IMG/VR virus record: IMGVR_UViG_3300037069_001451
Location: 1-42,959 of that record
DNA length: 42,959 bases
Strand: one strand, 5' to 3'
From: a virus
Below, piece by piece: positions 4,033 to 42,959 of this stretch. Both the position numbers and the translations under genes were made by a program. Below the pieces are notes generated by a model. That model was not told where the DNA came from and did no database searches. It saw only the letters and a list, made by a program, of their open reading frames with translations. Each line of letters opens with the position of its first letter. The first letter of the stretch is position 1.

Positions 4033-4322
4033 TATTGATAAGTGTAAAAAGCGAGGTTGTCGATGATAGGCAGCAATTTCAAACCGATGCCGCGGCGATG
4101 AAATATCTGTTAACAATAAACAGGTTACATCATGCACACCGCGCAAAGATAGCGGGTCCTAAGCCTAAAAAAATATGGTTCAGAACTGGGATAAGGGCGA
4201 TTAGCAATCAAAGGTTTAGAAAGGCTATGGATGATTATAATTTTACAATGTCATCCTGCATCAATTTACGTATCGAAATAATCAACACAAAATTTAACCA
4301 ACTGAATTTACAGCTAAAATAA
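4029..4322 (+). CDS. Hypothetical basic protein
   Basis: This is a 97-residue protein. The middle is strongly basic (HHAHRAKIAGPKPKKIWFRTGIR) and the C-terminal third is helical with many Asn, Ile and Leu residues. It is linked to both neighbours by short overlaps (4029-4032, and 1 base at 4322), so it is translated with the recombination nuclease and the clamp. A nucleic-acid-binding role is possible from charge alone. I do not recognise the family. Confidence 0.6.
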   Translation: MILISVKSEVVDDRQQFQTDAAAMKYLLTINRLHHAHRAKIAGPKPKKIWFRTGIRAISNQRFRKAMDDYNFTMSSCINLRIEIINTKFNQLNLQLK

Positions 4323-5500
4323 TGACAAAACCAACCACCACCCCCCAATCCCGCCAGTTCCAAATCCAGCAAAGCGAACTAAACCGCGCTTTGCAGATTT
4401 GCGGCCGCGCACTCGATACGAATAATATCCTGCCAATTAACTCGATGTTTTTATTCGATCTGAAACCAAACGTCCTAACCATATCGGCGTGCAATATGTA
4501 TCAGTCGATATCAACCTCGCTAAACTTAAGTAACGAATTATCGTTCAGCATAGCGATACCGGGTAATAAGCTGAAAGACTATATCGCGAAATGCAAGCCG
4601 GAATTGCTGGTATTTACGATTAATGAACATGTGACACTGCCAACCGAAACGGCGCCGGAAACAGTTTCCTACTCCGTCACCATCGCATCCGGCTCCAATC
4701 CGAAAAACAATTGCAACATGCCATGCGAACCGGGCGAAAACTTCCCGGTAATAAAAAATACGCCAACCGCTGAATTTGAATTACCCGCAGCTGATTTTCT
4801 CGAAGCGTTATATAAAACGATGTTCGCAATTTCGGATGACCAATTGCGGCCAAGCGCGACGGGGTTAAACGTTGAGATTACAGGTAAAAAAATTACCTAC
4901 ACCGGCTTGAATTTCAACATGTGTTCTACTTATGCATATCCGGTCGAAAATTTACCCGATACCGAAATAATTATTCCGAAAAAGTCGCTTCAGCTAATTC
5001 AATCGCTTAGTCCGACCGGGCAACTTAGCATTATTGTCGGCGATGCAATTACGATTAGCTTTAACGGCATTGAAACCAGGTCGAGGCTGATTGATGAAAA
5101 ATACCCGGATTATAAATCGGTGATGCCGACCGGCAATAATATTAATTTCGTAACGTCACGGCCCGACCTGTTAGCCTCGCTAAAACGGATTATGCCATTT
5201 CGTGATTTTGGCAAGTTGGTGAAACTTAACATATCAACCGCATCAATCGAGCTTATCGCCGAAAACATCGACTTTTCCGAAGAAGCTAAAGAGGAAATAC
5301 CGGGTGCACTGCCTGATGGATCACCGATACTGATCGGGCTGAACGGCGACTACCTGCTCGATTTGCTCAACTCGTTTACGGAAAGCGAGATTTGGTTTAA
5401 TATGAGTGCGCCAAACAAGGCAATTACCTGCACCGATGGGAGTATATATGTGGAGAGTAGTAAGGAAAATTTAGTTTTACTCATGCCGTTGCTTATATGA
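4322..5500 (+). CDS. dnaN: DNA polymerase III beta-like sliding clamp
   Basis: This 392-residue protein is slightly longer than bacterial DnaN (about 366) and aligns by eye over all three clamp domains. The N-terminal segment is LNRALQICGRAL...ILPINSMFLFDL. The second domain has FAISDDQLRPSATGLNVEI, matching the FSMA/FAIS..D.R....G... signature. The third begins with RLIDEKYPDYKSVMP, matching the (R/K)L(I/V)(D/E)G(R/K)FPDY block. It ends in LVLLMPLLI, like the C-terminal VVMPM. It should form a ring on DNA and tether polymerases or nucleases. Phage-coded DnaN homologues are uncommon and no phage polymerase is visible here. It lies between recombination and helicase genes and overlaps the next gene by 4 bases. 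Confidence 0.88.
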   Translation: MTKPTTTPQSRQFQIQQSELNRALQICGRALDTNNILPINSMFLFDLKPNVLTISACNMYQSISTSLNLSNELSFSIAIPGNKLKDYIAKCKPELLVFTINEHVTLPTETAPETVSYSVTIASGSNPKNNCNMPCEPGENFPVIKNTPTAEFELPAADFLEALYKTMFAISDDQLRPSATGLNVEITGKKITYTGLNFNMCSTYAYPVENLPDTEIIIPKKSLQLIQSLSPTGQLSIIVGDAITISFNGIETRSRLIDEKYPDYKSVMPTGNNINFVTSRPDLLASLKRIMPFRDFGKLVKLNISTASIELIAENIDFSEEAKEEIPGALPDGSPILIGLNGDYLLDLLNSFTESEIWFNMSAPNKAITCTDGSIYVESSKENLVLLMPLLI

Positions 5501-7844: not shown

Positions 7845-8158
7845 CCCCCTACATCTTCCCCGGTCTTAAAAAACCCGACCCGAAATTGTATTTCGATTTG
7901 CAAGCCATGATTGCCGAAAATGGCGGACGGATTAGGCTTGCTGAAAAACTTGAATGCGAAATGGTAAAATCTCGAATTTGGTTTGATTCAAGGGAATATA
8001 ATATACCGCCTCATGGTGCGGTTAGATGGAGTGAAGATGAAAATAATCTATTCATTTTAGGCAAATCCAATGTAGAGATACATCAAATTACGGGACGAAC
8101 ACTCAAAGCTGTTGTAGAGCGCCGACGAAAATCGGCAAAATATAATCATAAAAAATGA
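7841..8158 (+). CDS. Small protein with SANT/Myb-like HTH
   Basis: This is a 105-residue protein. The C-terminal half reads RWSEDENNLFILGKSNVEIHQI followed by TGRTLKAVVERRRKSAK. This resembles a SANT/Myb-like or GcrA-like helix-turn-helix (W..DE...L...G.S..EI....GRT..AV..RR). The N-terminal half contains PDPKLYFDLQAMIAENGG and is probably helical. It overlaps the methyltransferase gene and the primase gene by 4 bases each. It may bind DNA as a target-selection or regulatory protein for its neighbours, which is inference from position. Confidence 0.6.
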   Translation: MTPYIFPGLKKPDPKLYFDLQAMIAENGGRIRLAEKLECEMVKSRIWFDSREYNIPPHGAVRWSEDENNLFILGKSNVEIHQITGRTLKAVVERRRKSAKYNHKK

Positions 8159-8979
8159 TAACCATCTTTCAAAACTTCCACAACATGACACCACATTACC
8201 GGCATATCGACGCGGTACTGGGGCGGATACGCGATGGGAAGTCGGCGGGGTTGGTTGAGCAAGCGCGGCTTGTTTACGGCAATGAAGTTGAATACACTAA
8301 GGCTAAAAAACGATTGCCCTGCATCCTATTCAGCGGCCAGTTTAATCACAGGTCGGTAAAGGGTTTAATCAAACACTCCGGCTTCATTTGCCTGGATTTT
8401 GATAAATTCCCATCGGAAAGCGAATTGCAACTTTGGCGCGACAATCTCGATAGTGACGAATATACCTATTGCGTTTTTACAAGCCCGTCAGGACGGGGCC
8501 TGAAATGCGTGGTAAAAATACCCGAATGTTTGCCCATTGAACATAAGGCATTATTCAGGGGCTTGCAGAAATATTACGATTGCCCGTACTTCGACCCGAA
8601 CGTACATGATATTTGCCGGATCTGTTTTGAAAGTTACGACCCGTCTTTAACCATCAACCCGAATAGCCGTGCCTGGACTACCCCAATTTTCGATCCCGAA
8701 CCCGTTCAGGTTGAATACGGCAAAGCAAGTTTAGATGAGCAGGAAACTGTTAGGCGGTTGTTGGTTTGGCACTCTCGAAAATATGGCATGAACAACGGGA
8801 ACAGAAATAACAACTTGTTCCGGTTATTCGCAGCCTTTAATGATTACGGGGTGGATAAAGATTATGCCCTGTCAATCGGTTCGCAATGGCAAAGTGAGGA
8901 TTTTAAGTTGAGCGAGATTGTTACGACGTTGAATAGCGCGTATAAGAAAACCGGGAAGCATGGAACGCTAAAATTTTGA
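8155..8979 (+). CDS. BT4734-like primase (AEP fold) with PriCT-like C-terminus
   Basis: This 274-residue protein has the BT4734/VirE N-terminal type of archaeo-eukaryotic primase fold. Motif I is FICLDFDK (D81, D83) and the second motif is TSPSGRGLK (S112, G113, K117). The C-terminal part (from about 195) contains RRLLVWHSRKYGMNNGNRNN and a helical region like PriCT domains. Proteins of this family are especially common in Bacteroidota and their mobile elements. It probably makes primers for replication; here the helicase is a separate protein at 11674. The start has an ATGA overlap, with a second in-frame ATG at codon 11. Confidence 0.8.
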   Translation: MITIFQNFHNMTPHYRHIDAVLGRIRDGKSAGLVEQARLVYGNEVEYTKAKKRLPCILFSGQFNHRSVKGLIKHSGFICLDFDKFPSESELQLWRDNLDSDEYTYCVFTSPSGRGLKCVVKIPECLPIEHKALFRGLQKYYDCPYFDPNVHDICRICFESYDPSLTINPNSRAWTTPIFDPEPVQVEYGKASLDEQETVRRLLVWHSRKYGMNNGNRNNNLFRLFAAFNDYGVDKDYALSIGSQWQSEDFKLSEIVTTLNSAYKKTGKHGTLKF

Positions 8980-11485: not shown

Positions 11486-11677
11486 ATGCAAAATCCAAAC
11501 CCGATCAAAATCACAATTGAAGGACCAGAAAATGCACGAGTTATAAATGTCACACAAATAGTTTCAACGGCAATTAAAAAGATGATGTCGCAATCAGATT
11601 GTGTAATTGCTATTAATTACGCACATAAAAAACATCCCGCATCTGAATTTGCTGATATAGTTATCAATGTTTTATGA
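11486..11677 (+). CDS. Hypothetical small protein
   Basis: This is a 63-residue protein with motifs KITIEGPENARVINV and VSTAIKKMMSQSDCVIAI. It seems a small alpha/beta protein without signal or membrane segments. Its stop overlaps the SF3 helicase start by 4 bases, so the two are probably co-translated and may cooperate. I do not recognise the family. Confidence 0.6.
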   Translation: MQNPNPIKITIEGPENARVINVTQIVSTAIKKMMSQSDCVIAINYAHKKHPASEFADIVINVL

Positions 11678-13113
11678 AGGCAAACCTCCGGATCGATTGG
11701 CTTGCCTCGCAAAAAGAGTTCCCACATTTTGAATTAATAAAACCAAACAAAAATAAACTGGATTGGGATTTTACAAAATTACATCCATTTTATACTTCAA
11801 GGGGTTATTTTATTTATAGAACATCTATTGATAGGTTTGTCCCGATTAGAATTATTGATAATATAGTTAAATTGGTTGGTAAAAAGGAGTTAACCGATGA
11901 GATACTTAACTTTTTATTATCGGTAGATGGGTGCCAGGAACGGTATCATCAATTCGCCCTTAAAAAAATAAAAGAGGCAACAAGTGACGACTTCTTAATT
12001 ACATTACCTGAAAAACAGGTGCATTTTCGAAAGGATAAACACAATGCAATGCAATTGTATTTTCAAAACTGCATTGTTAAAATCACTGCCACAAATATAA
12101 CGACCCATCCCTATACTAAATTAGATGGTTTGATTTGGGAAAGCCAAATACTTAATCGGGAATATATTGCCTCTGAAATTTCAGATAAAGGGGATTGGGC
12201 TAATTTTATCAGTAATATATCAAAGGCCGACCCTAAGCGAGTTAGCGCATTGTGTACATCGTTGGGTTTTTATCTTCATAACTATAAATCGGCGGCTTAT
12301 TGCCCCGCCATCATTCTTAACGATGAGGTTATGTCTGATAATCCTGAAGGCGGAACTGGTAAGGGGTTGTTTTTTCGCGCTATAGCGCAGTTTATTAAAT
12401 TATTCCGTATAGATGGTAAAACATTCAGTTTTGATAAGAATTTCATATACCAGGGTGTATCACCCGATACTAAGCTAATTTTCTTTGATGATGTTAAAAA
12501 ATCATTTGACTTTGAGCGCCTATTCTCGGTAATTACCGAGGGGATAGCGGTGGAGAAAAAAGGTAAAGATGAAATTTATATTGACTTTGAGAATAGTCCA
12601 AAAATAGGCGTATCAACAAATTATGCCTTGCGAGGAACCGGAAATAGCCATGACCGCCGTAAGCATGAACTCGAAATAACACAATACTATACTAAAAAAT
12701 TTAGGCCGGATCATGAGTTTGGGCATATGATGTTTACCGGATGGGATGATTTCCAGTGGCAACAATTCGATAATTACATGGTAATGTGCTGCCAGCTTTA
12801 TCTAAACAACGGACTTATTGAACAGGAATTAATCAACCTGCCCGAAAAGAAAATGATCGCCGAAACGGATTATTATTTCCTCGAGTTTATGGAAGATAGA
12901 AAGTTTACAACAATTAAAAAATCTGATTTCTTTAATGAGTTTATACGTGAATATCCCGAAAAACTTAAAGATAAATATTTCACTAAACAAAAGTTAAGTA
13001 AATGGCTCCGGGTGTATGCCGATTACATGGGGTATGACATGCCTGTAAAGGATTATATCTACGCATCTGAACGCTATTATACTTTCACTAAAAAGTTGGA
13101 AAATCAGGAATAA
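11674..13113 (+). CDS. SF3-like (primase-helicase type) replicative helicase
   Basis: This 479-residue protein has a single AAA+-like helicase core. Walker A is EGGTGKGLF (226-231, K230), Walker B is KLIFFDD (267-273), and the sensor-like motif is GVSTNYAL (312-319, N316). An Arg pair follows (HDRRKHELEI). This layout is that of SF3 or D5-like helicases, which bind and melt phage and plasmid origins. The N-terminal 200 residues show no primase motif, consistent with the separate primase at 8155. The C-terminal part (about 410-479) is probably a winged-helix DNA-binding tail. An iteron-like block starts directly after its stop codon, fitting an initiator role. Confidence 0.82.
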   Translation: MKANLRIDWLASQKEFPHFELIKPNKNKLDWDFTKLHPFYTSRGYFIYRTSIDRFVPIRIIDNIVKLVGKKELTDEILNFLLSVDGCQERYHQFALKKIKEATSDDFLITLPEKQVHFRKDKHNAMQLYFQNCIVKITATNITTHPYTKLDGLIWESQILNREYIASEISDKGDWANFISNISKADPKRVSALCTSLGFYLHNYKSAAYCPAIILNDEVMSDNPEGGTGKGLFFRAIAQFIKLFRIDGKTFSFDKNFIYQGVSPDTKLIFFDDVKKSFDFERLFSVITEGIAVEKKGKDEIYIDFENSPKIGVSTNYALRGTGNSHDRRKHELEITQYYTKKFRPDHEFGHMMFTGWDDFQWQQFDNYMVMCCQLYLNNGLIEQELINLPEKKMIAETDYYFLEFMEDRKFTTIKKSDFFNEFIREYPEKLKDKYFTKQKLSKWLRVYADYMGYDMPVKDYIYASERYYTFTKKLENQE

Positions 13114-13431
13114 ATTACAAAGTTGAGTCAAAAACACCCGAAATGTTACAAACATTTGGCAAAAATTACAAAGTTAAAACCATGTTTGTAACTTATAAAT
13201 ATCACGTTATCAGAACGTTAACATAGTTATTACAAACATTACAACTTATACCCTATACTATATATATAAAATAAAAAAATCACACACGCTTAATATATAA
13301 AATGTTTGTAATGTTTGTAATAATGGCATTTTTAACACTTAACTAACTGATAATCAACACATAAAAAGTTACAAAGTTAAAAAGCGTGTTTGTAATGTTT
13401 GTAATCATTGTAATTATTAAAAATCACCCAT
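13114..13431. other. Probable replication origin with 9-bp iterons
   Basis: This 318-base non-coding block carries about ten copies of ATGTTTGTA or its complement. There are tandem copies at 13302-13319 and 13387-13404 (with a degenerate third to 13413), and single ones at 13145-13156, 13182-13192 and 13229-13240. A variant TTACAAAGTT occurs near 13115, 13166 and 13369. A 7-bp inverted repeat AAATGTT-ACA-AACATTT lies at 13141-13157. The segment 13245-13300 is almost purely A/T, like a DNA-unwinding element. It lies between an SF3-like helicase and a nuclease gene. Iterons plus an AT block are typical of origins, though an operator array is an alternative. Confidence 0.65.
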
Positions 13432-13851
13432 ATGCAACTCAACCCATCCCAGCAAAAACAGTACGATCATTTACTCAACCTACTCAACCGCGTCCCTAAA
13501 TCAGAGCAGCAGCTTCAATCAAAGTGCGCTGAACTCTTGTATTTCTTCTATCCGGCACATTGGAAACGCCTTGTTACGACATTTAACAACTCTTTACGTG
13601 CCAATACGCAGGGTTTTGGTATTGTGCCCGGAGCGAGTGATATGTATTGGTTGGCATGGGCGGATGTTAAGTTTATCGAATTTAAGTTTGGCACGAATAG
13701 GCAATCACCGGCTCAAATCGAATGGCAGGCAATATGCGAGGATTTGGAACACGAATATCACCTTTGCTATATCGAGGCCGACTTTTGGCGGATCATCGGT
13801 TTTAACCAACCTTGCGAGGCTGATATATTAAATTTGGATTGGTTTAAGTAA
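13432..13851 (+). CDS. VRR-NUC domain nuclease
   Basis: This 139-residue protein has the small PD-(D/E)xK nuclease arrangement of VRR-NUC proteins: GIVPGASDMYWL (D70), FIEFKFG (E83, K85) and RQSPAQIEWQ (Q95), then a YHLCYIEADFWRII strand. Stand-alone phage members are thought to act as Holliday-junction or flap nucleases in replication or DNA maturation. It lies between the putative origin and the terminase operon, and the promoter of the packaging operon begins inside its last codons. Confidence 0.85.
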   Translation: MQLNPSQQKQYDHLLNLLNRVPKSEQQLQSKCAELLYFFYPAHWKRLVTTFNNSLRANTQGFGIVPGASDMYWLAWADVKFIEFKFGTNRQSPAQIEWQAICEDLEHEYHLCYIEADFWRIIGFNQPCEADILNLDWFK

Positions 13852-13882: not shown

Positions 13883-14434
13883 ATGACAGAGGCGGTACAA
13901 AGGTTTTGTGATCGGTATTTTGAAACACTAAACGGCACACAGTCAGCTATTTACGCTGGGTTTAGTGAGAATACAGCGCGCTCACAGGCCAGCCAAATGT
14001 TAGATACTCAAGAGGTTCAGGATTATTTAACCAATCTCCGCAACGCGCTTGCTGAAAAAACCGGCATATCACAGCAGAAAGTTTTGAATGAGATTGCTAA
14101 AATAGCTTTTAGTGACATTAGAAATTACTATGAGGGCGATGGGCAACTAAAAAATATTACAGACCTTGATGATAACGAAGCCGCGGCCTTGGCAAGTATA
14201 AAATCATACGAAGAAATAGAACCACGGTCGGGTATTGTTTTAGGTGTCAATAAAGAAATTAAAATATATGACAAACTTGCAGGACTGGAAAAACTTGCGC
14301 GACATTTGGGCATGTATAAAGAAGACAACAAACAGCGCTCCCAACCTATCCAACTCTTAAACTTCGACCCGATAAATGCAGTTACAGGTAACGACAGCCC
14401 TACGGAAGATATCGGCACTACGGAAGCGCATTAA
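13883..14434 (+). CDS. terS: Terminase small subunit
   Basis: This is a 183-residue protein. The N-terminal part (RFCDRYFETLNGTQSAIYAG, FSENTARSQASQML) is the HTH DNA-binding domain of Terminase_2-type small subunits. The central region (TGISQQKVLNEIAKIAFSDI) is the conserved oligomerisation segment. It recognises phage DNA and hands it to the large subunit. The gene overlaps the large subunit gene by 59 bases in another frame, an unusually long overlap for this genome. It is the first gene after the consensus promoter at 13833. Confidence 0.9.
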   Translation: MTEAVQRFCDRYFETLNGTQSAIYAGFSENTARSQASQMLDTQEVQDYLTNLRNALAEKTGISQQKVLNEIAKIAFSDIRNYYEGDGQLKNITDLDDNEAAALASIKSYEEIEPRSGIVLGVNKEIKIYDKLAGLEKLARHLGMYKEDNKQRSQPIQLLNFDPINAVTGNDSPTEDIGTTEAH

Positions 14435-29169: not shown

Positions 29170-31593
29170 ATGAACTCCACCCAGCCCCAACCCAACCGCT
29201 TCACCTATCAACTCGAAATACGGGGTGTAATAACGGAAATTTTATTCAATTCGCCGGACGGTTGGCTCGAAACGAATATAAAATACGGGCGATCGGCTCA
29301 ATACGGCGGCGTTATCCGTACCCTATCACTGCCCGTTAAATTCGTTCATTTGGGCGCAAGTTTGGTCAGGCAGGAATTTTATAAATATGCTCAACTTGCA
29401 CGGGTTAACCTGCGTATTTTCAGGAATAACCCCCTAACATTTGAAGACGAGCAATTCTTTTTCGGCAAACTCGACTTTTCAAAATGGAGTGATGAACCAA
29501 CCGGCGTAACGGTAAATTTGATCGAAAATAATATCAATACGCAAATCGCGGCTTATGGGGATCAACAATATCAAATACCATTAACCGTAAACCCTACGCA
29601 GCGCACGGCATGGATAAACTCTCGCGGATATGATCCGATGGTAGATTTACTACTCACGCCGCTATTGCTCGAGGAAACCGCCGACCTGATATTTAATACA
29701 TCGCCCGACTTTCGGATGAACGCATTTTTCCAAACATCTATCGCCGATTATCAGCAAATGAGCATCACGCCATCGGTGCAGGGGACGGGTTTTTTATGGG
29801 ACGGCAACCCGATAACGTTTGCGAATAACCCGAATTACTTTTTCGTTGCACAAACGGACGGCTTAATGCGTATATCGTCGCCATTAGACCCGATTACGGG
29901 GCTTCCGGTAGTTGGCGCAATACAAACATCAGTAAACGGTAAACCGGGCGGCGTAAATGCGCAATACCAATTTAATATTTACAATCAAACCGGGGCGCTT
30001 GTAAAAACGCTTGCTCAAACCGGGCTTGTTAACGGCACGGTTGAGTTTACATTTCAATTCGACTTCTCTACGCACGTTACTAAGGGCGATAAGTTATTTT
30101 TCTACATCAAAAACATTCTTGATGATACCTATGGGAATAGCGATACAAACCACGGCGTAAATATGCAGGCCGGATCAATGCGATTAACGTTTAACACGAT
30201 CACCCCGGCAACGCATTGCCAGGCTTTGCGACCTGAATATGTATTTGATTATTTGGTGCAGCAAATGAACGGAACGGATAATCCGACCGTAACGACACAA
30301 AGCAGGCTACTCGGTTTGAACGGTTTGCTTTACCAAGCCTGCATAACCTGCTCCAATGCCATCCAAACATCACAGGCGGCAACAATATACCAGGCGGGGG
30401 ATAGCTTACAGTACGGCAACGAATATAGGGTGTACGGGGGAATTGTTCATTATGTCAATTCGGACGGTTTTGCAACGGATTTTGCGCCTGGGAGTATTTT
30501 CAAGGCCATCTACCCGCACGATACGTTTACAACAGATCCAGATCAGGACGGATTTGTGCAGCAGCAAAATAATAATCCGCAATTGCTAATCAGTTATAAC
30601 ATGCTATTTAAGGCTATCCGGGGGTTGATGGGCGCGCAATTAGGCACCGGATTAGACCCGACTAACCTCGATGCAGCCGGTCAGCCTAAGTATTGCATGG
30701 AAGATTTGCGGTATTTTTACAGGTCGACCGCGAAAGGGGCAACGAGTAATCAGGCGGCATTAGACCTGTCAAATCAAATCGATGTTAAGTCGCCTCGTTT
30801 AGAAGCTGCCGAGGATTTGCTGATTAACGGCATTAAAGGTGGTTATAGTAATCCGCAACTAACCGCACTTAATTCGGGCAAAGAGTTTAACGCCGGTGTG
30901 ATTTACGGGACGAAAATAACGACAACATCGAACGTACTGGATATTACCAGCCCTATCAACGCGTCATGTTACGCAATAGAGGAAAAACGCACACAACCTG
31001 GTTATTTACAACCATCATCGGGGTTAACAGGTACGTTCTATCTAAATTCCGCAGCATCCAGGTCGGATAATGATTTGCACTTCGTTTATGTGCGTCCGGC
31101 GGCTGAAATTGGCGGTTGGTATCAACCGTTGACCGTTTCGGACGGATGCTTATCGTTTAGCGGCGTTTCGGGCGAAGTTTATAACTGGCCGCTTAGTCCT
31201 ATGCAGAATTTACTACGCGGGTCGAATTACCTCGCTTCGGTATTCGATAAAATGCAGGGTTACACGATTTACCTTACCGGGGCCGATAAAAATACATCGA
31301 TGATAACGGTCGATCTGAACGGGCGAAGGGTTGCTGAAAGCGATGTGGTGAATGTTTCGGATTTGGGCGCGCAGATATTTATTCCTTATTATGATAACAT
31401 AACAACGGGCATGCAATTTAATGCGGAGCAAATGTTATCGGTAAATCCGTTCGGTGAGGTTTGGTTTATGTATCGCGGTATAAACTGGAAAGCGTTCATA
31501 AATACCGTTTCCGTTGATTGCGGAAGCAACTCGCCGCAGGGTATTAAGGTTTTGTTAACACCGGGGAATGATTTGGGGATGAGGGTATTTTAA
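29170..31593 (+). CDS. Tail tip / distal tail protein
   Basis: This is an 807-residue protein, starting at ATG 29170 one base after the tape measure stop. The frame is open further upstream but inside the tape measure gene. Motifs include FTYQLEIRGVITEILFNSPD, QFFFGKLDFSKWSDEPTGVT and a C-terminal strand-rich domain. The gene order (after the tape measure) identifies it as a distal tail or baseplate hub protein. Its last 39 bases overlap the 3' end of the opposite-strand methyltransferase gene. Confidence 0.65.
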   Translation: MNSTQPQPNRFTYQLEIRGVITEILFNSPDGWLETNIKYGRSAQYGGVIRTLSLPVKFVHLGASLVRQEFYKYAQLARVNLRIFRNNPLTFEDEQFFFGKLDFSKWSDEPTGVTVNLIENNINTQIAAYGDQQYQIPLTVNPTQRTAWINSRGYDPMVDLLLTPLLLEETADLIFNTSPDFRMNAFFQTSIADYQQMSITPSVQGTGFLWDGNPITFANNPNYFFVAQTDGLMRISSPLDPITGLPVVGAIQTSVNGKPGGVNAQYQFNIYNQTGALVKTLAQTGLVNGTVEFTFQFDFSTHVTKGDKLFFYIKNILDDTYGNSDTNHGVNMQAGSMRLTFNTITPATHCQALRPEYVFDYLVQQMNGTDNPTVTTQSRLLGLNGLLYQACITCSNAIQTSQAATIYQAGDSLQYGNEYRVYGGIVHYVNSDGFATDFAPGSIFKAIYPHDTFTTDPDQDGFVQQQNNNPQLLISYNMLFKAIRGLMGAQLGTGLDPTNLDAAGQPKYCMEDLRYFYRSTAKGATSNQAALDLSNQIDVKSPRLEAAEDLLINGIKGGYSNPQLTALNSGKEFNAGVIYGTKITTTSNVLDITSPINASCYAIEEKRTQPGYLQPSSGLTGTFYLNSAASRSDNDLHFVYVRPAAEIGGWYQPLTVSDGCLSFSGVSGEVYNWPLSPMQNLLRGSNYLASVFDKMQGYTIYLTGADKNTSMITVDLNGRRVAESDVVNVSDLGAQIFIPYYDNITTGMQFNAEQMLSVNPFGEVWFMYRGINWKAFINTVSVDCGSNSPQGIKVLLTPGNDLGMRVF

Positions 31594-32733
31594 AATCGGT
31601 AAAAGTTGGCGTAAAATTGCTTTCATCATGTGGACGGGTATGGAGTTCCCGGCCTGTTTGTAGGCAATAGTATCATTTTTGCTAATTATATAATCATCAC
31701 TAAACCCCTGAAACCTCATACATTCACGCGGTGTTACTACACGTAAATTATTTGTTATCACTTTTGGAACGTGCGATATTGATAGTGTATTTAAAATTCC
31801 GTTTTCTTTGTGGTAAACAGCTTCCTGGCACCCACTACCATCTTTGCGAACTGCTCTAATATTATTTTCGGTTTCTTTAAATGTGTGAATACGTTTATTT
31901 ATACTATCTACGTTTATTAATTTCATCCCCGCGTGAGTTTCACCATCCCCGCGTGCCAAAACCGAACTCATTATATCGTCAGGTTCAAAAATATTATCTA
32001 ATGGGTTTTGATTGCTTTTCCATTTAGATATATTCTTTATTTGACTTTCACTCAAATGATACTTCTCATCAACTTCACTTTCCAACAAATCAATCAACCT
32101 ATCCTTTAACACTACCCGTTTAGGCCAAACAAATTTACTTGGCAAATCGGACCGGATGCCAATAATAAAAACCCGTTCCCGGTTTTGAGGCAACCCGTAA
32201 TGTTTGGCGTTTAATACCCGGTAATGCAGGTTGTAACCCAAACTACCAGGATGGTTAAACATATTCGGTTGCCCGTTGCGTGAGCATCCCAGTAATTCAA
32301 GCCACTTGCCAAATGTTTTACCCGAAGCATCCGATAGCAAGCCTTTTACATTTTCAATTATAAATACTTTCGGCCTTTGATTTTTAACGTAACGAATAAA
32401 ATCATATATCAGCAATCCGCGTGGATCGTTTTCACCTTGACGTTTTCCCGCTAAACTAAATGACTGGCATGGAATACCAGCGACAACAATATCGGCATAT
32501 AATCCCGGATCGATCCAACTTTCCATAGTCATATCCTCAAGCATAATTCCAGGTGTGAAATTAGCCAAATAGGTTTGCCGTGCGAATTTGTCTTTTTCAC
32601 AGGCAAAAACGTTTTCGTGTGGGATATCTAACTCTTTTAAGGCTTGTTCGGGACTACCGATACCGGAACACATCGTGCCGATTTTAAACGGAATTATTTT
32701 GCTCAATTCAGGCGAATTGCTTAATTTTGTCAT
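31555..32733 (-). CDS. DNA (cytosine-5-)-methyltransferase, solo
   Basis: This 392-residue enzyme has all key C5 motifs: I (GTMCSGIGSPEQAL, 19-32), IV (GIPCQSFS, catalytic C89), VI (IIENVKGL), VIII (QNRERVFIIGI) and X (KQAGNSIPVHMM near the C-terminus). The region 220-330 is the target recognition domain. No restriction endonuclease is adjacent. The gene sits reversed inside the tail operon, between two tail tip genes, and its end overlaps the upstream tail gene by 39 bases, like an acquired moron. It probably masks sites from host restriction. Confidence 0.94.
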   Translation of the reverse strand: MTKLSNSPELSKIIPFKIGTMCSGIGSPEQALKELDIPHENVFACEKDKFARQTYLANFTPGIMLEDMTMESWIDPGLYADIVVAGIPCQSFSLAGKRQGENDPRGLLIYDFIRYVKNQRPKVFIIENVKGLLSDASGKTFGKWLELLGCSRNGQPNMFNHPGSLGYNLHYRVLNAKHYGLPQNRERVFIIGIRSDLPSKFVWPKRVVLKDRLIDLLESEVDEKYHLSESQIKNISKWKSNQNPLDNIFEPDDIMSSVLARGDGETHAGMKLINVDSINKRIHTFKETENNIRAVRKDGSGCQEAVYHKENGILNTLSISHVPKVITNNLRVVTPRECMRFQGFSDDYIISKNDTIAYKQAGNSIPVHMMKAILRQLLPILKYPHPQIIPRC

Positions 32734-40339: not shown

Positions 40340-40374
40340 AAGTAGTCTTCTCATAATTTAGGTTTATAATTGGT

Positions 40375-40412
40375 AAAAAGCAGATCGGCGCAAGGCAAGT
40401 CTGCTTTTTTTT
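40375..40412 (+). terminator. Terminator of the tail operon
   Basis: AAAGCAGA / TCTGCTTT stem with a loop of about 15 and a run of eight T residues. The T run also supplies the -33-like TTTT of the next promoter. Confidence 0.8.
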
Positions 40413-40438
40413 ATTTCAAATTATTTTTTCTACATTTA
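40408..40438 (+). promoter_or_regulatory. Promoter of the lysis operon
   Basis: TTTT (40408-40411), 19 bases, TACATTTA (40431-40438), one mismatch to each box. An ATG (40443) stands 4 bases downstream. It overlaps the preceding terminator, as at 15771. Confidence 0.5.
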
Positions 40439-40442
40439 AGCC

Positions 40443-40469
40443 ATGATAAACGATACCTATTTGATATGA
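40443..40469 (+). CDS. Leader mini-ORF (MINDTYLI) before the lysozyme
   Basis: Eight codons starting 4 bases after the -7 element; its TGA overlaps the lysozyme ATG (ATATGA at 40464). This is the same arrangement as at 15807 and 32811 and suggests translational coupling from a nearly leaderless mRNA. Confidence 0.4.
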   Translation: MINDTYLI

Positions 40470-41122
40470 ACTATATTCAGGGCGTAGACCGATCACATCT
40501 TAACTCACCCATCCTGTTAGCCAAACTTGTAACCGAGGGGGTAAAATTCATTTGGTTTAAAGCAACGCAGGGCGCGACATATCAGGACCCGACATTTAAC
40601 GTAGCTTGGCAGGAGGCGAAAAACACGCCCGGATTAATTCGCGGCGCCTATCATTTTTACAATCCGCAAGTTGATGGTAAAATCCAGGCACAAAACTTTT
40701 TGTCACGGGGTATTAATTTTTCCGCTTCGGGTTGTTTACCACCTTGCGTTGACGTAGAGGATTTGGTAGGTAAAGATCAAGCCGATACGGCGCAATTAAA
40801 CAAATGGGTTGCCGATAATCATACGGTTGCTATACAGCGGTTAAACGATTTCCTGCAAGCTGTAAAAGAGCAGACCGGGCGCGACTGTATTATTTATACC
40901 TACAACAATTATCCCCGAGAGTATTTTCGCGGCTATGGCTTTCCGAATAATGAGATGTGGTTAAGTTCACTCCAAACGACCTGCCCGAACCGTTACGATA
41001 AAAATAAACTGCCTGCGTTTTGGCAATATACTTACGGTTGGAACAAGTCGGACATGGATGGGAATTATTTTACTGGAACGCAGGATGAATTGAATAATTT
41101 AGCAAACATAAACTTATCATAA
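40466..41122 (+). CDS. GH25-type lysozyme (endolysin)
   Basis: This 218-residue protein is an N-acetylmuramidase of GH25 family. GVDRSH (D8) opens the barrel, FIWFKATQGATYQDPTF is the typical second strand region, GLIRGAYHFYNP follows, and LPPCVDVEDL supplies D96 and E98. A C-terminal FWQYTYGWNKSDMDGNYFTG closes the fold. There is no signal peptide or cell-wall binding domain, so a holin should be needed; one follows directly with a one-base overlap. The ATG at 40466 is preferred to the upstream in-frame TTG at 40370, which falls before the terminator. Confidence 0.92.
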   Translation: MNYIQGVDRSHLNSPILLAKLVTEGVKFIWFKATQGATYQDPTFNVAWQEAKNTPGLIRGAYHFYNPQVDGKIQAQNFLSRGINFSASGCLPPCVDVEDLVGKDQADTAQLNKWVADNHTVAIQRLNDFLQAVKEQTGRDCIIYTYNNYPREYFRGYGFPNNEMWLSSLQTTCPNRYDKNKLPAFWQYTYGWNKSDMDGNYFTGTQDELNNLANINLS

Positions 41123-41440: not shown

Positions 41441-42043
41441 TTAAAGTTTCAAACCTGTTTCCATATCGAGTTGAGCGGTCGGAACATGCCAAAACATATA
41501 AGGATGCCCGTGTGAGGCTTTATCGTTCGGCATAATCCAGGCTATCCATTTGCCGTTCATATAAATAGCCTTATACATATACTTCGGGATATTTTCACCG
41601 CTCTTGAGCTTTCCAATTGTGCCGATACCCCCGGCAATAATATGCAGGGTTGCTGTTTTCGCCCAAACCCGTTCCTGAATCTCGAGAACTTTCCAGTCAC
41701 CAGCATTGAACGGGTGTATTTGAGGTAACATATTCGTCATTAAAAAACATTCGACCTTGTCGGTTGCATCACACATGGCATCGTCATAGCTGAATAAATG
41801 GCCTTTGTCATAGCCCGAATTGGCATAATCTTTCGGCGTTGCACTTCCCGGTATCGCCTTATCTTGTGCAAAAGCGTCTTTCCTGGCTTGTGGTGCGCAC
41901 GAAACCATTGCTGGCGTTAAATACCATGACACACTATCAGGAACGCGCTGTGAGGCGTTATAATGCGTTACAAACGAGTGGTGCTTTACGGTTTGCGCGA
42001 ACACTCCGTTCGCGAGTAGGAGTAATAGGATTAGTTTTTTCAT
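41441..42043 (-). CDS. Exported DNA/RNA non-specific endonuclease
   Basis: This 200-residue protein has a signal peptide (MKKLILLLLLANGVFAQ). The beta-beta-alpha-metal nuclease core contains GYDKGHLFSYDDAM (DKGH at 79-82, H82 the general base) and TNMLPQIHPFNAGDWKVLE (N113 the metal ligand), as in the NucA/Serratia family. The mature enzyme should degrade DNA and RNA in the periplasm or outside the cell. It is the last gene of the leftward cluster, next to lysis genes, and shares the start context ATCAAACTCAAATGA with the preceding gene, which it overlaps by 4 bases. Confidence 0.9.
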   Translation of the reverse strand: MKKLILLLLLANGVFAQTVKHHSFVTHYNASQRVPDSVSWYLTPAMVSCAPQARKDAFAQDKAIPGSATPKDYANSGYDKGHLFSYDDAMCDATDKVECFLMTNMLPQIHPFNAGDWKVLEIQERVWAKTATLHIIAGGIGTIGKLKSGENIPKYMYKAIYMNGKWIAWIMPNDKASHGHPYMFWHVPTAQLDMETGLKL

Positions 42044-42443: not shown

Positions 42444-42959
42444 TTACGCTTTTTTAATAAACGTTTGATAAACATACGACCCCAGGACGATCACTTTCGA
42501 CCATGCGGTTCCGGGCGACAACAACGATCCAACCAGGTTAAACAACCCGGTGAAAAACGTATTATGCGCTAAGTCATCCGGCAACTGGTTCGCATGTGCC
42601 TGTAAATTGGCAATCGTTTCGGCCAATGTCGGGGCGGCGATACTTTGCGTGATGTTTAACGCCTTACTGGCTTGCGTTAACAGCCCGTTAAGCGTATCTT
42701 CCGTCCACGCGGGGTTGATCTGCCTTAGCAGGTACGAAACGACTACCGGGTTTTCGTTCAGGTTGGTTTTAATCACCTGAACGGCTTGCGAGGCTTGTTT
42801 TAAAACTGCCTGCACGGCTGGTTCTTCGGCCGCGAATAGTTTAGCGAGTGCTTTCGCTTCGTTGCCGACAAAGGCGACGATTTTGCCCGGTTCGCCGGCG
42901 ATTGCTGCGAGTACTTTGCCTACGCCTGTTTTTGTTTTGGTTGGGGTTGCCGGAGCCTC
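42444..42959 (-). CDS. Hypothetical protein, C-terminal part (gene spans the circular join)
   Basis: This is the continuation of the gene starting at 156: the frame is open to the right end and stops at 42444. The complete protein has 180 residues. This part is Ala/Gln-rich and helical (QASQAVQVIKTNLNENPVVV; ETIANLQAHANQLPDDLAHN) and ends with a hydrophobic segment FNLVGSLLSPGTAWSKVIVL, then GSYVYQTFIKKA, possibly a membrane-associated helix. Unknown function; the hydrophobic end could suit a lysis or envelope-associated role. Confidence 0.75.
   Translation of the reverse strand, partial: EAPATPTKTKTGVGKVLAAIAGEPGKIVAFVGNEAKALAKLFAAEEPAVQAVLKQASQAVQVIKTNLNENPVVVSYLLRQINPAWTEDTLNGLLTQASKALNITQSIAAPTLAETIANLQAHANQLPDDLAHNTFFTGLFNLVGSLLSPGTAWSKVIVLGSYVYQTFIKKA
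42831..42956. repeat. Terminal direct repeat, right copy
   Basis: Identical to bases 1-126. The final three bases (ctc) do not match and may be assembly error. Confidence 0.95.

Follow-up and report, generated by a model that had tools for sequence, protein, structure and literature searches.

The window analyzed here is the whole of IMG/VR record IMGVR_UViG_3300037069_001451, 42,959 nt in length. Its first 126 bases recur exactly at positions 42831-42956, broken only in the last 3 bases of the record, and because of this terminal overlap the record, although listed as linear, very probably represents a whole circular genome of ~42.83 kb. The window encodes a small and a large terminase subunit (TerS and TerL), a major head protein and a tape-measure protein; judged by these genes of its own, the element is a full phage of 43 kb, and it falls outside the PICIs proper, which are helper-dependent satellites. 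No DNA polymerase gene was found among the window proteins scanned. A DnaN-like sliding clamp with three Pfam beta-clamp domains is encoded at 4322-5500 and may recruit the host polymerase. We infer that the hosts are Bacteroidota, because the primase is BT4734-like and distant relatives occur in such phages and genomes. Elsewhere in the window lie a C5 cytosine methylase on the minus strand among the structural genes (31555-32733), a GH25 lysozyme on the plus strand (40370-41122) and a DNA/RNA non-specific endonuclease on the minus strand (41441-42043). The features around the locus under study are listed below.

8155-8979, plus strand: primase-type gene, separate, presumed partner of the helicase (BT4734-like N domain and PriCT_1; Pfam PF08800, PF08708)
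11674-13113, plus strand: DUF5906 (D5/SF3-type AAA+) helicase of 479 aa, proposed initiator (Pfam PF19263; AlphaFold2; Foldseek)
12859-13110, plus strand: C-terminal domain of the helicase, residues ~396-479, predicted winged helix (secondary structure of the model; tracks repeat type; swapped as a module)
13114-13431, no strand: iteron array, proposed replication origin (repeat counts; position kept in relatives)
13115-13191: left outer sites (TTACAAA/TTTGTAA), plus at 13115, 13146 and 13166, minus at 13185
13230-13245, plus strand: left inner tandem pair at 9-bp spacing, TTACAAACATTACAAC, second site with one mismatch
13246-13304, no strand: A/T-rich core of 59 bp, 81% A/T, proposed melting (DUE) region
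13305-13320, minus strand: right inner tandem pair at 9-bp spacing, inverted, TTTGTAATGTTTGTAA
13369-13413: right outer sites, plus at 13369, minus at 13389 and 13398, partial site at 13408
13432-13851, plus strand: small VRR-NUC-like nuclease ORF flanking the array (labeled by resemblance; no Pfam match)
13883-14434, plus strand: terminase small subunit, TerS (Pfam PF03592)

The array extends from the stop codon of the helicase gene (13111-13113), where the initial annotation had placed its start, to just before the next ATG (13432). It contains 10 copies of the heptamer TTACAAA/TTTGTAA in 318 bp, where the composition of the remaining window predicts 0.14 (Poisson P ~8e-16); in shuffles, no 7-mer exceeded 4 copies. 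A scan of the whole window identified this as its single cluster of the TTACAAA type. The count of about ten copies in both directions given by the initial annotation therefore holds for the heptamer, and the array is indeed dense and two-directional, but the count does not hold for the 9-mer ATGTTTGTA, which occurs exactly six times with an additional one-mismatch copy at 13386. What had been taken for a precise 9-bp unit is a set of 7-bp sites at 9-bp spacing, and it is the spacing that is conserved. Of the two tandem pairs described earlier, that at 13302-13319 is correct, and the other lies at 13386-13403, one base from its reported position and with one mismatch; the perfect 7-bp inverted repeat at 13141-13157 (AAATGTT-ACA-AACATTT) was also correctly identified.

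An 18-bp perfect inverted repeat (13227-13244 and 13306-13323) had previously been missed; it is built from two pairs of sites at 9-bp spacing, which face each other with the core between them. The inner pairs are in opposite orientation, such that the sites on both sides point inward to the A/T-rich core. This core contains a 22-nt A/T-only run at 13259-13280, the longest of the record, and its right edge carries a conserved CG...ATATATAAAA element; the larger stretch at 13245-13300, once described as A/T-only, is A/T at 45 of its 56 bases (80%). Rfam and tRNA scans returned no matches. The locus has what is expected of an iteron replicon, namely multiple short sites beside an initiator gene together with an A/T-rich region suited to melting. 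Cumulative GC skew had been suggested as a check: once detrended, the skew reaches its minimum at 13,610, next to the array, but its amplitude is not significant (p=0.39), and the skew is for that reason uninformative as a test of the origin.

The helicase carries a Walker A motif, NPEGGTGK, at residues 223-230 (12340-12363) and the sequence FDDV at 271-274, and it matches PF19263 at 6.7e-08, above the curated cut-off of the DUF5906 family. PHROG family phrog_28855 covers the window primase and helicase as a single protein elsewhere. Because a search of the PDB with the helicase profile gave no match at E<=1, only comparison of folds was informative. When AlphaFold models were computed for the helicases of the window (TTACAAA class) and of locus L016 (GGGGCA class), the mean pLDDT was 88 and 86, respectively. 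Whole-chain Foldseek matched the fold to MPXV E5, SaPI5 Rep, ASFV PrimPol and NrS-1 with E from 1e-13 to 1e-10 and probability 1.00; for SaPI5 Rep (7ola) the TM scores were 0.54/0.60. The earlier label "SF3-like" is acceptable at this level, as the model resembles poxvirus D5/E5, ASFV PrimPol and SaPI5 Rep. Both models have the same order of elements at the C-terminus, helices followed by a two-strand hairpin, and the domain is thus predicted to be a winged helix in two repeat classes. In the window model, helix 438-451, just after FTKQ, is likely the recognition helix. The tripeptide neighboring it is T/SKQ in the TTACAAA loci, SRH in L194, TVN/TKN in L010 and L095, and mostly ASK/ASR in the GGGCA class, and we hypothesize that these residues read the DNA.

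To compare relatives, which the initial annotation had proposed, we assembled 21 loci, comprising the window and 20 further distinct loci from profile scans of IMG/VR that have both the helicase and an array in its vicinity; the window protein alone as query had found one relative, and the profile scans gave the rest. An array lies downstream of the DUF5906 helicase in 21/21 loci, even where the genes beyond it differ, and it is the sequence of the repeat unit that varies. Immediate adjacency is broken at L095, where an ORF is inserted between helicase and array, and at L097, where the array is ~1 kb away. The inserted ORF of L095 (~4360-4700, between helicase stop and array) looks GIY-YIG-like by eye, and in many relatives the slot just past the array is taken by VRR-NUC-like small nucleases of several different subfamilies. 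Classes were set from the array sequences themselves: TTACAAA in the window, L001, L007, L008, L009, L011, L012, L092 and L185; TGACA in L010, L095 and L194; GGGCA-type in L013-L016, L094, L096 and L182; AGGGGA in L048; and TGACGCA in L097.

Inner pairs with 9-bp spacing are present in 17/21 loci. The layout counts apply to 16 loci that have a strict inner pair, with L097 excluded. In these, sites in the left half are oriented 84 plus and 17 minus, and those in the right half 12 plus and 78 minus (Fisher p ~1e-23). The core measures 52-76 bp in these loci (103 bp in L097), and 10/16 cores have a CG followed by an A/T run that ends at the right inner pair, compared with a mean of 1.4 and a maximum of 6 in 2000 shuffles. 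Relatives in which primase and helicase are fused (a clade at ~42% identity) have no array directly downstream, and our claim is therefore restricted to the split-helicase clade together with L048 and L097. In one cultured phage, Bacteroides phage BT-TP2 (L006; PQ571279), a TTACNAA array of 11 sites occupies a gap downstream of a fused primase-helicase (5040-5298), with the sites near the A/T stretch pointing the other way. More distant helicase relatives (~30% identity) in bacterial genomes have repeat clusters near the helicase stop, with units ATCTACA, CGGTTAC and AAGTGGG (L224, 2883-3250; L219, 2880-3100 in helicase-strand coordinates; L223, 2960-3150).

A search for the architecture using DNA alone returned 10 contigs, 3 of which belong to this clade; the 10 represent 8 distinct elements. 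It placed one array just 5' of a DUF5906 primase-helicase (L234) and one where a weak AAA_25 ORF ends (L233), and it also matched inverted TTACAA pairs that have no D5-type helicase beside them. As far as DNA patterns go, this result is supportive and not specific. The same search yielded L227, in which a TTACAA array of the same layout (700-1030) lies directly 3' of a 535-aa helicase that is VirE-type by eye.

When the helicases of the split clade were aligned, the last ~85 residues stood out as a module that differs between repeat classes, with the rest of the protein 50-85% identical. The array k-mer profile correlates with C-terminal identity given the core of the helicase (partial Mantel r=0.73, p=1e-4); the converse, correlation with the core when the C-terminus is controlled for, gave r=0.14 and p=0.11. 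Among pairs of loci with C-termini at least 40% identical, 51 share a repeat class and 4 do not (all TGACA vs TTACAAA); the corresponding numbers are 25 and 32 for pairs with helicase cores at least 65% identical, and 13 and 26, near the 29% background, for pairs that share a downstream gene. The nearest neighbor has the same class in 17/19 loci by C-terminus and in 11/19 by core, and the two misses by C-terminus are TGACA loci whose nearest neighbors carry the related unit TTACAAA. Downstream genes illustrate the same point: the VRR-NUC-like ORF is 64-69% identical in L001, L010 and L014, with which the window shares it across three repeat types, TerL is 81% identical between the window (TTACAAA) and L014 (AGGGCA), and TerS is 70% identical between L012 (TTACAAA) and L016 (GGGGCA). 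The repeat tracks only the last ~85 helicase residues, and neither the helicase core nor shared downstream genes.

Pairwise alignments locate the boundaries of this module. Between L094 and L185, identity is 79% as far as ~codon 376 and 85% in the gene that follows, and the ~550 bases separating the two stretches cannot be aligned; for L094/L185, L185/L095 and L182/L095 taken together, the alignment holds to ~codon 376-405 and resumes beyond the array, and the intervening ~500-950 bases do not align. Near-identical phages, as these alignments indicate, swap the C-terminal domain and the array as one cassette between conserved flanks. Since the C-terminal codons adjoin the array, part of the association between repeat and C-terminus could come from linkage, by hitch-hiking in one recombining block; the downstream gene, which is equally adjacent, shows no association with repeat type. 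What sequence comparison shows is the array with its symmetry, the conservation of its position, and the inheritance of repeat type together with the helicase C-terminus.

Intergenic repeats in this position could serve other purposes, and the comparative evidence argues against the terminase, operator and RNA readings. TerS is encoded ~450 bp downstream of the array and close downstream in several relatives also, and cosB-like sites can be repeats, so that the array might be a packaging (cos/pac) site bound by TerS; yet neither terminase gene tracks the repeat, as the identities across classes given above demonstrate, and in L009 and L010 the array persists while the genes past the adjacent small ORF are different ones. 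We regard a packaging site as scarcely credible. An operator array, on which a repressor or activator would control the downstream packaging operon, would suit an intergenic block upstream of co-directional genes, and multi-site arrays can be operators. This reading is very unlikely, given that no coding sequence besides the helicase C-terminus co-varies with the repeat and that an operator would not be expected to have a conserved A/T core flanked by inverted sites; the helicase may in addition regulate itself from an array that serves as origin.

The inverted repeats might also function by folding into a hairpin, in RNA or in single-stranded DNA, much as has been proposed for the origin of pRN1. 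The 18-bp perfect inverted repeat of the window encloses a 61-nt loop, predicted folds are more stable than those of shuffles (z -2.7 and -3.4), and spacer bases match across the arms at 19/32 positions, compared with 10.5 expected. The hairpin model was raised because the arms of the window and L001 co-vary, but it was not upheld in L010 and L092, which have zero spacer matches and are among several relatives whose arms are not complementary outside the sites. Moreover, the right outer sites of L009 share the orientation of those on the left, and inverted sites yield fold potential without selection for folding. On balance, a function as a folded structure seems highly improbable. The replication origin recognized by the adjacent helicase, as the initial annotation had read the block, is by comparison strongly supported by the layout and position in 21 loci and by covariation with the C-terminus.

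The closest known system is the rep-ori of SaPI/PICI elements, together with SCCmec Cch2 and pRN1. SaPIs/PICIs are described as having an initiator helicase gene with the origin directly 3' of it, two sets of iterons flanking an A/T-rich region, and recognition of the origin by the C-terminal domain of Rep; related helicases of SaPI and SCCmec bind iterons just downstream of their own gene through this domain (PMC6092414, PMC7581432). The window resembles them in the origin immediately 3' of the initiator gene, as in its relatives, in two iteron sets flanking an A/T-rich region, and in a predicted helicase fold that matches SaPI5 Rep. The strong covariation of its iterons with the helicase C-terminal domain across the sequences compared suggests that this domain may recognize them. 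Since the window follows the PICI plan, its helicase is best read as a self-loading initiator, and the array as an origin for two oppositely oriented rings. For SCCmec Cch2, also a D5-type helicase, the C-terminal domain, when isolated, binds repeats that lie immediately past the end of its gene; that site comprises three direct 5-nt iterons, and the part of the source that covers it describes no symmetric two-sided array (PMC7581432). The archaeal plasmid pRN1 encodes ORF904, a primase/SF3 helicase with a winged helix, and its essential origin just downstream of the gene was proposed to form a stem-loop with a 21-nt stem and a 58-nt loop (PMC4234260). A winged-helix helicase (predicted in the window), a downstream origin (proposed in the window) and an inverted repeat around a loop of ~58 nt (61 nt in the window) are thus common to both; pRN1 is read as a stem-loop without iterons, whereas the window has multiple conserved sites and pairing that is not conserved.

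The window differs from SaPIs/PICIs in being a 43-kb circular phage with terminase, head and tape-measure genes and not a satellite, in having its primase as a separate gene, in a helicase that lacks a sequence-level match to any solved helicase, in its 7-bp sites with 9-bp inner spacing, and in the swapping of specificity as a cassette. The alpha protein of phage P4 combines a helicase and an iteron-binding C-terminal domain in one protein, but P4 has a second, distant iteron block, crr, besides ori, whereas the window has one cluster only. The parts are of a known kind; what differs is their occurrence in a full phage, with a separate primase gene and with specificity exchanged as a cassette. 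A literature search, which left out most subscription journals, found no paper describing such an origin in phages of Bacteroidota.

We consider it highly probable, on the strength of these comparisons, that the block is the replication origin of the phage, which would be bound by the predicted C-terminal winged helix of the helicase, melted between two rings and copied bidirectionally. In the mechanism that we infer for binding, melting, ring assembly and bidirectional copying, the C-terminal winged-helix domain of the DUF5906 helicase would bind the 7-bp sites, and the two inward-facing site groups, each with its 9-bp-spaced inner pair, would assemble two oppositely oriented helicase rings by the core. 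The A/T-rich core would then melt and the rings would move apart, the separately encoded primase would prime, and the host polymerase would copy in both directions, perhaps by way of the phage's own DnaN-like clamp.

With these results, full phages would join the satellites in having a rep-ori layout of this kind. In related phages a change of repeat goes along with a change at the C-terminal end of the helicase, and this is a clue to the way in which the helicase locates its origin. Related helicases with five classes of repeat, and with C-terminal domains to match, amount to a natural experiment through which the DNA-recognition code of D5/SF3 self-loading initiators becomes directly testable. 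Origins in uncultured phages could be predicted from the helicase gene alone. We tentatively suggest, as a possibility somewhat short of an even chance, that these phages carry their origin identity in a specificity cassette that can be swapped, the DNA-binding end of the helicase moving as a unit with its matching origin between phages nearly identical on either side, much as plasmids fall into incompatibility groups. Such exchange may be selected since a new origin may escape competing phages, satellites or host defenses that use or attack the old one.
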